From the NCBI GenBank assembly GCA_013076295.1, contig RQOL01000466.1:1240001-1304000 (forward strand): a DNA stretch of 64,000 nt. Direction: 5' to 3'. Under the pieces are notes generated by a model. The model saw only the letters and a list, made by a program, of their open reading frames with translations, ran no database searches and had not been told where the DNA came from. The position numbers and the translations under genes are program-made. Within the stretch, counting starts at the first letter, position 1. Each line of letters starts with the position of its first letter. Below, piece after piece: positions 47,701 to 59,900 of this stretch. The DNA comes from Sanderia malayensis. Lineage: Eukaryota; Cnidaria; Scyphozoa; Semaeostomeae; Pelagiidae.

Positions 47701-49226
47701 GCGGGCCAGGAGACGCTTAGCTTACCAATGTTATTCTTTTAGATTGCTACTATAGCAAATCTTCTAAGTCATAAGTCTCAACAACAGCATATTTCAGTGT
47801 TGGTTGGGCAAGATACGGCTTGCAGTACATTGCACACGCAGGTCAGGTTTCAACATTCTTGATCTTTGCCACATTGGCACATATCCACTGAGACTATTTC
47901 TTCCATTCTCCTTAGAAAAAAATTAAGAATATAATATTACTAGCTTGTCAAGTGAATTAAAGTCTTGTTGGGATAAATTTTTCACACCTTGCCTTGCCTT
48001 GCATTATATGGCCTAATATTGGTAGCCAAACTCAATTATTGTACGTGTAGAAGAATTCTTGTTACTTGTTACATGCACATTAATACATATGCAGCGATTT
48101 TAAGAGTTTAATAACAAACCACAAGTGAAAAAATATTCTTACAAATGATATTTCAGTGCCACGTTTTTCACCTCGTCGCAGGTTTCCAGAAAAAATCAGA
48201 AAAAGACAGACGAATATTCGTCCAGAACCAGAGTCCAGACGTACATTGGAATTGGATTTTCGGTGCATACTACAATTGCAGCGGTTTGTGTTGTGGTTTG
48301 ATCAAGATTCAAGATCTGAAGATGTAAAGTAAAAGGCAACTCCGCTGCAACATATCAATCATCAGTGTTTTTCAGTTGAGCACATCAATCACAGTTCAAT
48401 ATCCATGCCATCCATCTTTTCTCTTCTAAATGTAAAAAAATGATAAAAATACAAACAAGGGCATTTTCGTGGTCACTCTGATCGAGTTAATCCATCCATG
48501 ATTTTAATTTTAAACCAACCAATCATTGTTGTATTTACAATTATTTGACCAATCATCATGGAGAATTTATCTCATTAAACAATTGTTGAATACTGTGTTC
48601 AGATTTGGGCCAGGTGTGCTGTTGCATGCGTTTTCGTTGAAAGATTGCCTAAAAATACTGGAAAAAATACAGAAAAATAGCATTTGAAGGTAAGAAACAG
48701 CTTTTCATTTTTTATAATTTTTGCGCATTTATTTCGGCACCTACCTTTCTTCGTTAATGAAGACTGCTTGGGCCAACTTTCTCCCAAGATCTCTCTGCTA
48801 TTTCGCGCCATCTTGTACAGAAGGTATCAAAGACGAAAACTTACCATAATCAGACGATGGTCATGTAATTTTTTGATTTATCAACTGAGCTCCATCTAAA
48901 ACTCCTAATAAATTGAAAATATTTAATATACACCAATGATGACTGTCAGAGCCTGACGGAATGTGGATACAACTGCTACGAACGACATCAAAAGACCTTC
49001 TTTTATTGATAGGCCTACTAGAGCTAGAGCCCCAGAGCTGTCGATGCACGTTGTAAAATGTCAAATTAAAACCCCGATAAAATAAATGCTACTTTAAAAG
49101 ACAACAGATGGCTTGTTTCATAATATTTTTCAAGGCTCAGTGCAATAACATATAAATTTTATGCTTTCTGTTTGCCTAGCTGAATATTTTATGAAATAAT
49201 TTCTTCCTTCGTCTCTCGTTTTCCAG
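44701..49226. other. Gene-poor intergenic stretch
   Basis: AT-rich DNA without a supportable coding region. It contains a purine-rich repeat tract (45340-45560, listed), further GAAGTAGAAG-type runs near 45900-45960, and a 34 bp tandem pair TGGAAACATCTTGATT...GCCCCGATGAT at about 46969-47036. The right end should contain the promoter and untranslated 5' exon of the HMGA-like gene. Confidence 0.6.
45340..45560 (-). repeat. Purine-rich degenerate repeat tract
   Basis: Units of the form GAGGTAGTAGAAGTAAATG / GGTAGAAGCAAGACATAT, about 40 bp apart. It is the inverse strand of the pyrimidine tracts at 37490-37680 and 41530-41740. Confidence 0.6.
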
Positions 49227-49251
49227 AAGCAAGCCAAACCGTCAAAGAAAG

Positions 49252-49623
49252 ATGGAAGTCTCAGAAGAAAAGGCACCCGCCGTTGAAGATGCTCCCGAAC
49301 CTGAGCAAAATGGAATAAGTGGAACCAAAAAGCTGCGAGGAAGGTTGGTAAACACAGATGAATCAGCTCCAGTCAGTGATAACGCAGATGAGGAAGATGA
49401 AAATGGACAACCAAAAGAAAAAAGAGGTCGTGGTCGCCCCAGAAAATACCCCATAGGTTATGTTAAGCCAAAGAGTGGCCGTGGAAGAGGACGTCCAAAA
49501 GGATCTATCAAAGTGAAATCCCCTGAACATGTACCTTTGGCAAGTGAGAAAGCAAAATCGAGAAGAAAAAGAGGTAGACCACGCAAGGTTGTGCCAGCAG
49601 TTGTGAGGGAGGAAAGTGACTAA
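49252..49623 (+). CDS. HMGA: HMGA-like AT-hook chromatin protein
   Basis: 123 residues in one coding exon. The exon is preceded by a good acceptor (TTTTCCAG at 49219-49226) and a 25-base leader, so an untranslated exon lies upstream. Three AT-hooks are spaced as in HMGA proteins: RGRGRPRKY (residues 58-66), GRGRGRPKG (76-84) and KRGRPRK (106-112). Each hook inserts its RGR/GRP core in the minor groove of AT-rich DNA. The N-terminal half is acidic (EEDEN near 47-51), and the end is only weakly acidic (REESD), shorter than the vertebrate HMGA acidic tail. It is a nuclear architectural factor by family. Another small AT-hook protein is possible, but size and three hooks fit HMGA best. Confidence 0.8.
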   Translation: MEVSEEKAPAVEDAPEPEQNGISGTKKLRGRLVNTDESAPVSDNADEEDENGQPKEKRGRGRPRKYPIGYVKPKSGRGRGRPKGSIKVKSPEHVPLASEKAKSRRKRGRPRKVVPAVVREESD

Positions 49624-50507: not shown

Positions 50508-53500
50508 TCAATGATGAAACAGCCTCGTGTTGGAGTGAATCAAAACGATGCCGTGATCATCAGCAGCTTGTACGACAATTGGATCAGCATTGGAGCCAGC
50601 TGGACTACAGATGTACCCAACACCAGTCTGATAGAAGAAAAATAGCATCAATTAAAACTAAATAGCCACTGTAGACAAACTGACACTGAGAGGAACGATT
50701 ATTTAAACAACAAGTTTTTTTAAAAAGTCTGTAAGATGGAGACTGTGGACAAGTGAAAGCGACATTCACTTATCTGTGTTGTCCTCGTATTTTTATAGCA
50801 CAATATTTCTAACGAGTTATCACATACAAATCTATAAAATACGATAATTATAAATATATATATAGTTATCGTAGATATAGATTGATAAACCGCAAAGAAA
50901 CGTGTGCACCAAAGCCCTATATAATATTGCATATAAATTATTAAAAAGGTATAAAAAAAGTCTTCAAACAGGTAAACACTGCTACTGAGCCATGTACTCC
51001 AATCATTTAAAGTATTCGGTTTAAATAGGATTGTGAAGTGACGACTAATATGCAACTATAAATATTTATTTCTCACCTGGACTGCTCTGTCCACACTGTC
51101 ACGGAATGGGAAGAAGGCATCTGAGCTCAGGACGACTCCTTCCAGTTGCTTCAACCATGCTGTTTTCTCATCCTACAAGAGAAAAGAGGACATACAAAAT
51201 TCAGCCTCAATTTGAATGCAGAATAAACAGAACAGTTGTATGTGCTAGATTACTAAAGAATACGCGACTCTAAGCAACGAGCATACCTCTGATAGCATTG
51301 CAGGGATGGTATCAAATGATGCCTCAAAAGCTGCTTTATCCATATCCTATTATAAAAAGAGCATAGATTGAACATATAAAGCAAGAGAAACGAACGCATT
51401 CAACTATAATACGACATTCAGGATATGTTTATCTGTAAGATGGAGACTGTGGACAAATGAAAGCAACATTCATTTGTCTGTGTTGTCCTCGTATTTTTAT
51501 AGCACAATATTTCTTACGAGATATCATATTCATCATTATGTACGATAACTATAAATATATTATATACAGATATGGTTATCGTAAATAAGGATCGACAAGT
51601 CACTAAGAAATGTGTGCATAAAAAGCCTTATAAAAACACTGCACATACCGGATTGCATGAGTATAAGAATAGTCGTCTGGAATTATAAAATTACCTGGCC
51701 GACAGTACCACATACGTAAGCGTCAATTAAATTGGACATTTCAGCTCTTTTAGTTCCCTACGAAGAACAGGAGAATTTCTAATTAAAATAACAATAATCT
51801 CTAGCACAGTATATTGCAATGAACATATAGCAATCAAAAAACCTTTTTAAATTGCATGCTGAGGACATTTTGGTGCTGTCGCAGCCACCTATAGATACAA
51901 ACATTCTATCAATACCTAATGTGCATACAGTTATTAGCAAACAAATAATAGTACAGTCTAAAACGTTAGAACTTTTCGATTGAAACGAGGTGATTATCTT
52001 TAAAGTGAATGAGCCTTACCAATTTTTCGTCTTTTCGCCTGCCAATCGAACGCAGTGTATGCGCGACTGCTGACCAGCCCCAACGCCCACAACCTGAATT
52101 TCATGAGAACAATATCAAATATGATACAGTCAAGTATTGATGTGTCCTACAACAAGATAAAGTAGCACTTCATTCAAGTCAGAGAGATTTCAAAATTTGG
52201 AGAGTTAAACGTTTATAAAGAAACGTTTAACTGTCTAAACTTGATAAAGTTTGAGCGTTTGAGCAGTTGAACGTTTGATAAAGAAAATTCATAGAACAAA
52301 TCAACATTTAAAAAAATACGGTCCTTTTCTACGGTCTGAACATTAAGAAATTCAAGTTACACGGTAGTCGACTCATCCAGGTTCAAATAAGGCATATGAA
52401 CAGATACAAAGCTGCATAATACCACAAGACAGTGTACGCATACCTGGCCTCGTTTGGCATAGCAGACAGAGTTGGATTGAGTGAACTTGACGGCAATAGT
52501 CGCAACAATCAGATCCCTCAACGCATCAACAGGTAGCTGCAATTAATAAACACAGCATGAGAGCTATAATTACCTGAACAAAACAACAAATGAGAATACC
52601 AGAAGAAGCAACATCCATAAATATCCCAATTCAGCAAATCAATATGAACATAGAATACCTCTTTATTCTTTGATGTGATATTTTCAAACAGTTTTGCATC
52701 GATAACAGCATCGTTGCGTTTCTGTTCCATCTTCAGTCCGTAGATTGTCCTCATTTCCATCTCGCTTGGCTCGTAATTCTCGTCCATCTAATGTAAGAAG
52801 AAATACTGAAAGATTTAAAATGGTCGAACAACAAACAAAAAATGCCTCTGCAAACTCAAGCTGTCATTGGTTGATGGATAATGTTGTATAATATACTTGA
52901 CAACTTTGCTCTTGATAATTCACCACTCTCGTGCAATTAGCAAGCACTTAAAATATTAAGTTTACCTGAAGAATGCAGTAATTTCCAGCCTTCTTCTTCT
53001 TCAGTATTTCAAGCGCATCTGCATGATATCCTGGTGCAATCACGCCATCTGATACCTAAAAAACGCGGGAAATTAATCAACGTGAGATCTCACTAATTCT
53101 ATTTGCGAGATGATGTCAACAAAAGCTAAACCAGTAGCATCACTAACATCAACAAATCACAAAAACAGACCATGCACTAAGAACAACCGGATCAGCAATC
53201 AAAAACAGTGCTTAGTCCAATGGAAAAGATTAAATAAAAAGTCTATCACCTACCTCTCTGGAAATGATTTTAGCCGTAGCTACGTCACACTCATCAGACA
53301 GCGCAATGAAATCTCCAAACGACGACATTCTATCCGCGCCACGTGCTCTTGCGTAAGCTGTTGCTAACGGCGACAAATGCTCCTTCATGTCGTCTACCAT
53401 GCACAGCTTCGCTTCATCGGCAGTAAGTTCGACTCCAACCGCAGCACCTTCAACCAAACAGAAAAATACATGCACACCTATGTGGGTAACTGAATGATAT

Positions 53501-56106
53501 TTTGTTTACGAATCAAATAGTCATCTGGCCCAATGTATGCTTGATGTCTGCTGTACCTGTCAGCTTTTTAAAAGAGCTTACAAATTAGAAGAAAGAAGAT
53601 TCTTGCTGAAGAAAATTATGAACAAACCTGCAGGACTGACATGTTTGAATGAAGTGGCTGCAGGCATGTTCAAAGCTGATTTCAATTCCTAAAAGTGAAA
53701 TCAAAGTAGTAATTAACATATGAACAAAACGTAATATCACATGACCTATCTACGACAGCAATTCTTGGGCGTGGTCCCCACCTAGAAGGGCGTGGTCGCA
53801 AAAATTATGACATAGTCCTCAACGAGTGCTGCAATTTGCCATCTACATTTACACACCCTTGATTCACTTCTACAAAGCAACAACAATTTCCACGCAACTA
53901 TGACATTCTCTCCTGCTCAAAAAAAAAATTTAAAACGCATCAGCAAATACTTGAATGAACCATCAAAGGTTAACAGTGCTGAACATATGTGACAAAGAAA
54001 TGCACACCTTCACGAGTTGCCAGCCATTGATAGCATCACACAAATTGATGAAACCAGGGGAGCCATTAACCACACTGATTGGCAGCTTTGGTTCAGTGGT
54101 GTATAGCTGGGCGGGCTTCTGATGAGGATTCATTCCATATCTCAAAGGAAGGTGAGATATTCCTGCTGAGTATTCTTTACGGAAATAGTTTGAGATGGCT
54201 TCGTCGTACTGTGCAGTGTGAGTAAATGCCTAAGATGCAATGTAACAAATGTTTTTAATGCGTTATAGTGCATTTTGCTCACAATGCACAAACTATTGCA
54301 TGTGTATCATAAGCAAAAATGTACTTGGTACAATTACTTATATAATAAATATTATGAGAGCTATACCTTAAGAGCCAAGTATTTTCTTGTTTCAAGAGTT
54401 GTATCCCGACTTTCAGAATTTTTAATTTCATCAAGCACTCTGTGACAAAATATGGCAAATAAATCTCACAAAAAGTTAAGAAATGTCAAAAGAGTTGATA
54501 AACGAATGGGAAGTAAGCAAGAAAAAATAGCAAAGTTGAATGACATCATTATTACTTTGAATAATCTGATGGATCGCATACAACAGTGACACGAGCATGA
54601 TTCTTGGCAGCTGCTCGAAGCAAAGTTACCCCACCTAGAAAGATTTATGCAACAAAATTTGTTACAACTTCAGCCAAGCAACTATATAAATGGTTAATGC
54701 AATTTCCTTCAATCTCGCTAAGCATCTGGAACTTTGATTAAATTTTATACATTATAAAATAGTAAAACAGGCAAATGAAATTCTTAACAACAACTTTAAT
54801 GAAAGCATAATCTTACCAATATCAATATTTTCAACTGCATCTGCAACAGTTACATCTTCTTTGGAAATGGTTTTCACAAATGGATAAAGATTGCACACAA
54901 CCATTCTTAAGTAAGAAAACACAGTTCAATGGTTACTTTAAGTTGCAGTTTAGTCTTTAATCTACTTTTCTATATCCAAATGTCAATTGACGCCAATAAT
55001 AAAATGTTGAATGAAGAACTACCTAATCATTCCATAAGACTGTTTCTCCATATCAGCAATATCGCTATCTGTCAGTCTTGCCAAAATTCCTTGATGAAAT
55101 CAATATTCGTATCACTACTGTCACAAGCATAATAATTATTAGTATGTTATTTCTGTTACAACATTGTCTAAACTGCTGAAATTTTTCAAAATATATGTTT
55201 GTAAGATGGAGACTGTGGACAAATGAAAGCAACATTCATTTGTCTGTGTTGTCCTCAGATTTTTATAGCACATATTTCTCATGAGTTATCATCATATATA
55301 TCAATAACTCAATAAGAAATGCATGCGTTGATGCCCCTTAAATGCATGCATTGATGCCTGTTAGCACTAGGTAACTCATTCCATTGCATGATGGGTTTCT
55401 GTGATATCTGTCTCTGATGTATTTAGTTTGGGCTTCTAAAAGCTTTCATTGGCTATGATTTTAGCTATTCAATATATCTTCACGAAGAAAAAGCAATGAA
55501 CTGAATTAATTGCTTTTTTCTATCATTGTACCTGCATGAACAGTGGGGTGCAATGTCTTCACTCTTCCCCCAAGCATCTCAGGGGCACCAGTTATGTCTG
55601 AAACATCCCTGGAAAAGGAAAAGCATTCGTTATCATTGAAAACTTATCACAAAGTCTTTAAGCATTCTAATTTGGTAAAATGTTAATGAAAGAAATGAGA
55701 GCAACGGGCAAGTACAGTGGTTCTTCAAGGATCAGTACCTGACGTCAACACCAGCCGCTCTGATAGCTTTTGCAGTGCCCCCAGATGCAATCAGATTTAG
55801 ACCATGCTTGTTGAGTTCAGAAGCAAAACCTTCAAGGCCAGTTTTGTCAGATACACTCAATATAGCTAAAATAATGATAAATATGATTTTCAGCTAAAAA
55901 AAGACGCACGGTACTGGAAAAACTTAACAGCACAAAACAAAAGGCAGGAGGGTGGTATGGTAGGCCTAGCGGGTTCCTTTGCTTCAGCAAGAGCGATAAT
56001 ATATCCTCAACACCGAAAGATGTTCATGAATACATTTACTACAGATTAAATAGCTTAATACTTAAACTAGCTATATAATCTTACCAAGGTTTCTTGATAA
56101 AGCCAT
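50508..56106 (-). CDS. ATIC: Bifunctional AICAR transformylase / IMP cyclohydrolase
   Basis: Nineteen exons, 5' to 3': 56085-56106, 55739-55865, 55532-55608, 55023-55089, 54817-54905, 54556-54634, 54367-54439, 54008-54229, 53628-53688, 53254-53447, 52966-53055, 52659-52787, 52444-52536, 52020-52093, 51843-51888, 51695-51757, 51287-51346, 51077-51172 and 50508-50627. They sum to 593 residues (human 592). The enzyme catalyses the last two steps of de novo IMP synthesis in the cytosol. The N-terminal cyclohydrolase half shows [32 protein letters not shown] and [16 protein letters not shown]. The C-terminal transformylase half shows [17 protein letters not shown] (catalytic Lys-His), [40 protein letters not shown] and the RLFHH end. 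Three introns carry H/ACA-like snoRNA candidates on the sense strand. Confidence 0.98.
50727..50910 (-). ncRNA. Candidate intronic H/ACA snoRNA, copy 1
   Basis: Sense-strand copy in the last ATIC intron (50628-51076). Reading 5' to 3', the 5' hairpin has a basal stem GCACA/UGUGC plus UUUCU/AGAAA and an expanded upper stem ending in UACGAUAA/UUAUCGUA. The H box AUAAAA follows. The 3' hairpin has upper stem GAUAAGUGAA/UUCACUUGUC, then 15 bases to the ACA box (50730-50732), with three bases after it. The 15-base spacing to ACA matches the 14-16 rule for H/ACA guides. The weak part is the short basal stem of the 3' hairpin. Confidence 0.7.
51431..51619 (-). ncRNA. Candidate intronic H/ACA snoRNA, copy 2
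   Basis: Sense-strand copy in the ATIC intron 51347-51694. It has the same architecture: GCACA...UGUGC and UUUCUUA/UAAGAAA basal stem, inner stem UACGAUAAC/GUUAUCGUA, H box AUAAAA, 3' stem GACAAAUGAA/UUCAUUUGUC, and the identical CACAGUCUCCAUCUU spacer to ACA (51434-51436). Relative to copy 1 the 3' stem has two changed pairs, both still paired. Confidence 0.7.
55197..55327 (-). ncRNA. Candidate intronic H/ACA snoRNA, copy 3
   Basis: Sense-strand copy in the ATIC intron 55090-55531. At about 131 nt it has the canonical H/ACA length. The 5' hairpin upper stem is GAGUUAU/AUAACUC, a different sequence from copies 1 and 2 but still fully paired. It is followed by 16 bases to the H box AUAAAA. 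The 3' stem is identical to copy 2, and ACA (55200-55202) follows after the same 15-base spacer. Confidence 0.72.
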
Positions 56107-56930: not shown

Positions 56931-59900
56931 CTATAGGATGAAGTATGGCAAGACCTCTGAAGGCAAATCAACTTTGAGTTCGCCTTCCCAAACCGTTTTT
57001 AAAAAGTTGACCAATTTATTCATCTCCTCTATTGTCTCGAAGGCAATCAGCCAGCAACTTTCTCTCAGATCAGAATCACATAGCTGCAGAAAAACGAGAA
57101 TAAAACGATCAATTTCTTCACACAGATATTCAAAAGATACAGATGCACTAAGATGGCGGCGGGATGGAAAACACAGGCTGCAATTGATGCGACTTAAACA
57201 GGCAAAAATTATCATACATTAACATGCATTATTGAACACAGAATAATCACCTCGTCTAAGAAGTGCATGGAAAGGTGGCAAGGTGAATCTTCGAAGTAAA
57301 CCTGCACGTGATAAATAAATGAAATTAAGGCACAGAAAGGCAACCTTTCAAGGGTGTCTCTATATTATGTCTCAGTAGAAAGAAAAACATCACAGATGAA
57401 TGTTACAGTATCAGGGTTATAACAGTGCAAATTCTGCAGAAAGCACAAAATCTGCAGAGGTACATCAGTGCAAGCAGATGTAAACAAACACAAGATCTGT
57501 AGAGGTATACAAGCATAGCATGGAGAGGCCACCAGAGACATATAGTTGTAGAGTTGAGAGGTATAGAATCACAACATATACAGAGTAACATAGGGTATAA
57601 AACTTGTTTTTACAACTATGTTGTTAACATGACATACCACTTTAACTACATCAACAATTCTGTGTGCCCTGTAGATTTTGTATTGCTGGTTGAGGAAGGA
57701 TGGTGGTTGGTGGAGCCTTGACAATGGCCACTGATGTGATTCGTCAACGAGGAACAAATGAGTCTTTGTCATGCAAATTGTTCGCGTAACCAATGGGGAA
57801 TCTGCAACAGACAATGTAAGCCCATGAGAGACATCTTAAGAAGATGATGAAGTTTATACTAATAACCAAAATGATGTTAATAATCATGATGTTAAATTAA
57901 GGATAATCAGAGAATAAACTAGGTCTGACAGCAAACCTTCATCTTCAAGTTTTGAATTTACTATTTGATATACAAAAACATCAGTATTCATGTCGAAACC
58001 ATCAAAACTGCTTTGAGATAAATCAGAATGGTCGCTTTCATGACTCGTATTTCTTCTTAGGAACGACGAAGGCTGAGAAGCAAAAAAAATCAAAATTAAT
58101 CAGATGCTAAAAATATTGCTACCACTCTGCTATGCAATTGACTTGGCTCTCAATATCACAAACCCTGAACATAACGAGCATTCTGGTATGATGAACCAAA
58201 GAGGGGGAAACTTCTAATGACTATGAATGAACATCTGCTGTGTCCCTTGTACTGTCTCACAGTATACAATTCACTTTCGATTTAACGAGCTCACCATGAC
58301 AAAGCACATTTTATTTCCCTCCAGTCAAAATCAGGTTAATTGCATCGAAATTCCTCTGTACAATCTCAAACAGCACAGCTTGGCACTCTGGCCACAATAA
58401 CTGCTTTCTTGCAAAATTACCGGCCATCAACAATCGATCATCAACAATAAAACTAAAAACCAACAAAGTATCTAAGAACCTTTTTATGATTGTCCTGAAT
58501 ATCAAACTTATACAATGCATCGACATCTTCGAACTGCAATTCTTTTGAAACGTGATAGACCAGACCAACGTCAACAAGTTTCTGCATCAAAATAACAGCC
58601 TACAGGGACGATAAAAATCAAGTTATTCGCTTGAATAAGCGCCCATTTAAATAAGAAGCGTTTATCACAAGAGTTACGATAAAAGGCTGACGATGTTTGG
58701 TAGAAAGCTGTGCTTGCTTACATCACTACGCGATTTCGCTTCTTTCCGAGAAACCAACCAGTCTACAAGCTCTCTGCCAACAATGCATTGATGATGAGTG
58801 CGAATCCTGATCTGCAAAGATAAATGCACACTCGATTTCAAACAGCCTCGATCTCAAACAGCCTCTATTTCAAACGGCTTTCAGCCTCGAATCAAGTTCT
58901 CAGTCGCTTGGATATTAAAATATCCCAATTTTCTCTCTACGATGAACTCTATATGTCTCAAACAAATTCCCCGACCCCTTACAACTCAATGTACAGAGCC
59001 CACTATATAGTGTAGCTAGTGGAAGAAGAACTAGTTGGTAGCAGTAACCATCAGTACATGATTATGTCTTATGCGATCCCCAGAGTTTCTTCATGTTAGT
59101 TTGAATCAGTTCACTATTGGCCATCACTATAACTATGGTAAATACCAATAATAAATAGCTTCACTGCTTAGATAATAAAAATCATACCTTTTTACTTTTC
59201 AATAAAGACGGAACGGTATAAATGGCAACCTGTTCGCATAACCTTTTGGTCAGGGTCAAAGCATCTTCTTTCAATCCAAAAATTTGAGATCTGAAAGAAA
59301 GTGATAAAAAATGAGAGGTATCGATGACAAAAGTTATAGGTAACTAAAAGAAAAGTTGCAAAAACGGTTCTCCTATTGTCTAGTGTAGCAGTAAGACCTT
59401 TCTTCAAAGGCCCAGACATAAAAGCAGCAATTAGTTATGTTGAGTTGAATTAACAATTGTTTTTCGTGTTGTTAATAATTGTATCGTGTGATCAGATCAG
59501 CGATTGCGTAAATTTAAGGTCTTATGAATAAGATACCAACACTGACCTCACGTTAGACAATGTTCTTGGGTTTGGTTCCTCGGTGATGATGGGACATTCT
59601 TCTTTGTTCTTTGGTCCACTTTTCAGTGACTCTACAGATAGATTTAAAATGTTTACGTTATTCTCTGACTCTCATAGAGCAATGGAATAGAGAGGTTGCA
59701 ATGCCAGGACATTATTGCAAACCCTTCATATGAAATCTGAATAAGAGAATCTGCGATTGATGATTATTTATTAGCCTGCAACTTACGGATAAATGCATCT
59801 AAGAACTTCTGACAACGGTTGGTATCGCCAACAATGAATTTATAAGAGCCAAAATCACGAAGACATTCGATGCGAAAACTCTGCAAAAAAGTTAGATTGC

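Follow-up and report, generated by a model that had tools for sequence, protein, structure and literature searches.

Three similar stretches of DNA lie in three introns of the ATIC gene of the jellyfish Sanderia malayensis, which raises the question of what kind of element they represent. The region belongs to a window of 64 kb, the whole stretch of DNA analysed here, located in contig C405 of the assembly; genome searches covered all 918 contigs (184,004,477 bases). Mapping of the Rhopilema esculentum ATIC protein (P0002) with tblastn places the host gene at 50511..55869 on the minus strand, running from 55869 down to 50511 and finishing with the protein end RLFHH. We interpret the 16 tblastn rows, two of which cross an intron, as 18 exons. 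One exon matches the ATIC chains of the PDB with an E-value of 2.2e-40, and the nearest named entry to the exon peptides is that of Rhopilema esculentum, with 66% identity.

Copy 1 of the element (184 nt, 50727..50910) occupies the last ATIC intron, copy 2 (189 nt, 51431..51619) the intron between exons 51757-51695 and 51346-51287, and copy 3 (131 nt, 55197..55327) the intron between the exons at about 55610-55535 and 55096-55020. All three are on the minus strand and hence sense to ATIC, each in a separate intron, so that the tblastn mapping bears out what an earlier note had read from the sequence, namely an element recurring in three ATIC introns and always on the sense strand of the gene. 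Animal H/ACA box snoRNAs usually lie in this way, sense within an intron of their host gene. The copies also appear as direct repeats at 50728-50828, 51432-51532 (92% identical to the first), and 55198-55298 (76%). A near copy of the 5' end of copy 3 precedes it at 55316-55358 of the window (GGCATCAACGCATGCATTT, GGCATCAATGCATGCATTT, minus strand).

Read 5' to 3' on the minus strand, the predicted folds of all three copies display the same order of a 5' hairpin, the H box AUAAAA, a 3' hairpin, and an ACA followed by 3 nt, as the earlier note had described. The AUAAAA hexamer is present in each copy and fits the ANANNA hinge consensus. The 64 nt after it comprise a lower stem (GAGGA/UCC-A-UC), a left pocket strand CAACACA, a 10-bp upper stem with a 7-nt loop, a right pocket strand CACAGUC, and the ACA with its 3 nt. 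The lower stem is predicted to be short and bulged; in the best fold of copy 3 its pairing is slightly shifted, with the common pairing only 0.2 kcal/mol behind. The distance from the upper stem to the ACA is 15 nt in every copy, within the 14-16 nt usual for H/ACA box snoRNAs, and this 15-nt strand, CACAGUCUCCAUCUU, is identical in all three, in agreement with the earlier reading. In the aligned sequences, the conserved block extends at most 3 nt past the ACA found in all copies, which marks the end of the block and not necessarily that of an RNA.

The 5' half is more variable in length, the 5' hairpin of copy 3 being shorter than those of copies 1 and 2. In all three predicted folds, the strands expected to form a 5' pocket are base-paired to one another, and this speaks against a second guide pocket; on these models, the 5' hairpin is probably structural. 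A CAB box (ugAG) in a terminal loop is the mark of H/ACA scaRNAs; UGAG is absent from the terminal loops of the predicted folds of the three copies, occurring in copy 3 only within a stem, and we do not assign the element to the scaRNAs. The long 5' hairpin of copies 1 and 2 (-33.4 and -34.1 kcal/mol), together with the sense, intronic position of every copy, would also suit a structured intronic element that acts in ATIC splicing or serves as a small-RNA precursor while yielding no stable snoRNA. We consider this decidedly unlikely, given that copy 3 lacks the long hairpin, that conservation is strongest in the short box-bearing 3' hairpin, and that the sole miRNA model listed for copy 3 reaches 20 bits where the cut-off is 83.

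The copies fold more stably than expected from their composition, with z-scores of -4.77, -4.83, and -3.81 for copies 1, 2, and 3, and none of 200 shuffles of each was as stable. The plus strand of copy 1 is likewise stable (z -3.54), and energy alone therefore cannot tell the strand. Using a descriptor drawn up post hoc, with the element already known (ANANNA, a 10-bp stem, 14-16 nt, and ACA), we obtained exactly three matches on the minus strand of the window, the three copies, and none on the plus strand; in copies 1 and 2, the scan took ATACGA, 6 nt downstream of AUAAAA, as the H-box hexamer. Twenty random 64-kb strands gave 12 matches in total (mean 0.6), and one of these strands had three. 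What stands above chance is less the motif than the fact that the three matches are copies of one element.

Searching the 184-Mb genome with the 184-nt copy returned the three ATIC sites alone, and the 85-nt 3' part again found just these three, both counts being lower bounds. Resemblance between the copies, unrelated flanks, and strong inverted repeats are also what a short interspersed or foldback transposable element would leave after three landings in one gene. However, the copies found in 184 Mb (again a lower bound) number three, in one gene and one orientation, and the longest words common to the 50-nt flanks (7, 5, and 6 nt) are no longer than ordinary, since 81 of 500 random placements give 7 nt or more. 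Neither target-site duplications in these flanks nor dispersed copies in both orientations across the genome, the marks of a SINE or MITE, were found. Genome-wide scatter of this kind had been named by the earlier note as the observation that would speak against a snoRNA; only the three ATIC copies turned up, which makes a SINE or MITE very unlikely indeed.

Analysis of the differences between copies points to the 3' half as the part that has changed less. Between copies 1 and 2, 5 of 70 sites differ in the part that starts with the H box, compared with 22 of 110 in the part upstream (Fisher P 0.019). Across the 67 positions that span H box and ACA, pairwise differences amount to 4 between copies 1 and 2, 6 between 1 and 3, and 2 between 2 and 3. 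Three of the variable columns belong to the upper stem, one to the loop, and two to the stretch between the H box and the lower stem; no change was seen among the three copies in the pocket strands, the lower stem, the H box, or the ACA. Gene conversion between copies could be an alternative cause of the similar 3' halves. Two positions of the upper stem had been reported to change and stay paired. One pair does change on both sides (A-U/G-C), but the other is one-sided (C-G/U-G), and the remaining eight are invariant. With three sequences, the covariation is not above chance, the score being equalled by 181 of 500 shuffles. When the fold of copy 1 is mapped onto copy 2, 5 pairs are broken versus 9.2 expected (P 0.03); the fold of copy 2 mapped onto copy 1 breaks 7 versus 8.6 expected (P 0.28), and the antisense strand gives P 0.14 and 0.44. 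The argument from compensatory change is thus thinner than first claimed.

The earlier proposal that ATIC hosts a snoRNA family duplicated within the gene is supported by sequence features that suit an intron-encoded H/ACA snoRNA, namely the architecture, the strand, the intron placement, the failure to find other copies in the genome, and a 3' guide half that has changed more slowly. The H/ACA class of the element is well supported, and it is very probably an H/ACA guide RNA gene. We regard as likely the full reading, in which the three copies are cis-paralogues of one H/ACA snoRNA that are released from the ATIC introns, trimmed, protected by the dyskerin core, and active as guides through the 3' pocket. 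The snoRNAs would be freed from the spliced introns and then trimmed, the H and ACA boxes would be protected by the dyskerin/NOP10/NHP2/GAR1 core, and the left strand CAACACA and right strand CACAGUC of the 3' pocket would guide pseudouridine formation. Intron processing, binding of the core proteins, and guide activity are general properties of H/ACA RNAs, and it is from this general knowledge that we infer them for the ATIC copies.

A covariance-model scan, one of the checks proposed by the earlier note, agrees with the H/ACA class for copy 3. At gathering scores, no Rfam family was found in the 64-kb window, and copies 1 and 2, taken whole, gave no H/ACA match at E <=10. For copy 3, three of the five Rfam matches at E <=1 are HACA-box families (SNORA19, SNORA40, and snoR135), aligned over their full length in sense orientation, and the other two are a bacterial sRNA model and the miRNA model mentioned above. 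The best is SNORA19 (ACA19, RF00413), whose gathering score is 80 bits; the match has 27.4 bits and covers model positions 1-131 of 131 with the ACA in register (E 0.31 for the 8 kb searched, E 0.0065 for 166 nt). The eight matches of the 3' half of copy 2 include two HACA families, SNORA19 at E 2 and a second at E 6.5, which rank below non-snoRNA models.

In a whole-genome search with the SNORA19 model, which scored 54 of 23526 first-look candidates, the best of the matches listed falls within an intron of eIF3B, at C613:2089384 (45.3 bits, E 1.9e-4). Neither of the two rows listed was an ATIC copy; as copy 3 outscores the second row (25.4 bits), the absence of the ATIC copies is a matter of the filter and not of the score. 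Near C613:2089384, two SNORA19-like copies stand in tandem among the eIF3B exons (L030 1125-1256 and 1501-1634), with 45.3 and 29.8 bits. The host was identified by the Pfam eIF2A family in two exon peptides and by a match of one of them to PDB eIF3B chains (E 8.7e-21). A passage of PMC8759569 places human SNORA19 in EIF3A, which is another eIF3 subunit. SNORA19 also matches weakly at a third place, C726:2643173 (L031 1501-1616, minus strand; 25.4 bits, E 4.78 genome-wide).

The ATIC copies might then be divergent SNORA19 members that arrived in ATIC, which would leave them H/ACA guides and is thus a special case of the main reading. Copy 3 agrees with SNORA19 in box positions and length, the pocket strand CAGUCUCC of the 3' hairpin and GUGCUAUA.AAA are common to both in the alignment, and its 27.4 bits are close to those of the weaker eIF3B copy. 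Both eIF3B copies themselves fall below 80, and the gathering score therefore cannot decide membership. The left pocket strand and the stems differ, however, and comparison with the eIF3B pair speaks against kinship. A model built from the two eIF3B copies did not find the ATIC copies at E <=10, nor did the ATIC-copy model find the eIF3B copies. In a crude alignment test, all 12 comparisons between ATIC and eIF3B copies were not above shuffles (79 to 300 of 300 as good), whereas the two eIF3B copies aligned with each other better than all 300 shuffles. As these sequence tests find no kinship, we do not file the element as SNORA19, leave its family unassigned, and hold SNORA19 membership to be unlikely.

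A search of the pocket strands against 18S and 28S rRNA and snRNAs, also proposed by the earlier note, yielded no convincing site in one rDNA copy (L028, with conserved 18S, 5.8S, and 28S words) and single U1, U2, and U5 genes, in a scan that is uncalibrated. In strict register against the rDNA copy, 89 of 100 shuffled targets were as good with the upper stem closed and 48 with one pair opened. Allowing offsets in the 3' pocket, 7, 69, and 32 of 100 shuffles were as good with zero, one, and two pairs opened. The strongest single lead is in ITS1 of the pre-rRNA, where 9 of 10 positions of the right pocket strand are paired but the left arm is weak (7 of 100 shuffles as good). For the 5' arms, four partitions gave 88, 4, 93, and 27 of 100. 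A site for copy 2 in 28S, GAUUAACGAGAU[U]C (4 of 100), was taken as chance among 12 scans, because its distance from the H box is 22 nt and copies 1 and 3 have a different sequence in this strand. The U1, U2, and U5 scan gave nothing useful. The same procedure applied to one SNORA19-like eIF3B copy (18, 43, 97, 1, and 24 of 100) recovers no clear known site, hence its uncalibrated status. The difficulty of such predictions is also shown by human SNORA19, which failed at one predicted 18S site according to a passage of PMC8522698. A medusozoan guide family with no Rfam counterpart, hosted by a purine-synthesis gene, keeping the 3' pocket alone, and directed at a non-canonical target would be a bolder reading, which we consider speculative and improbable.

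Several observations were made on rRNA and snRNA genes of this genome. A U6 model run over the whole genome gave a single partial match, 44 nt long and with 33.6 bits, which is unexpectedly little for an animal genome of 184 Mb; this scarcity may be an effect of the assembly or of the search filter. U1 snRNA genes on contigs C495, C563, C806, and C807 repeat every ~1.77 kb, with at least 42 U1 matches. The universal 3' word of 18S is present in 18S-like copies L014 and L015-L018 (contigs C305, C303, C478, C675, and C348). L014 contains a 1632-nt 18S and no 28S in 9.8 kb by Rfam, none of the 28S words tried occurs in L015-L018, and these five copies look decayed. On C305 and C668, 18S-like copies are spaced ~13.1 kb apart.

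The arrangement in ATIC has parallels in other animals. In three sponges, according to a passage of PMC3412847, an H/ACA snoRNA has been duplicated into a neighbouring intron of RPL13A, and a passage of PMC2653536 terms such spread within one host gene cis-duplication. Cis-duplication is an ordinary mode of multiplication, already described in vertebrates and sponges, and the ATIC trio is a new example. Like animal intron-encoded H/ACA snoRNAs, the element has a hairpin-hinge-hairpin-tail layout with H and ACA boxes and 15 nt from stem to ACA, and like cis-duplicated ones it is sense in introns with paralogues in several introns of one gene. The jellyfish case differs in its ATIC host, its three copies, and its self-paired 5' pocket strands. 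No snoRNA survey of any jellyfish appeared among the literature matches listed, and the word snoRNA is absent from the main text of the Sanderia malayensis genome paper (PMC7305137). What the trio contributes is a probable jellyfish H/ACA family and an unusual host gene for it; together with the SNORA19-like eIF3B pair, it would make H/ACA cis-duplication occur twice in one genome, while the general picture of H/ACA RNAs is unchanged.

Two further open frames were seen in the window. The first, at 49195-49623 on the plus strand and convergent with ATIC, contains several GRGRP/KRGRP motifs, which we take to be AT-hook-like, and matches no Pfam family. The second, at 58674-58853 on the minus strand, is exon-like and resembles a DEP domain in Pfam with 26.2 bits, below the cut-off of 32.7.
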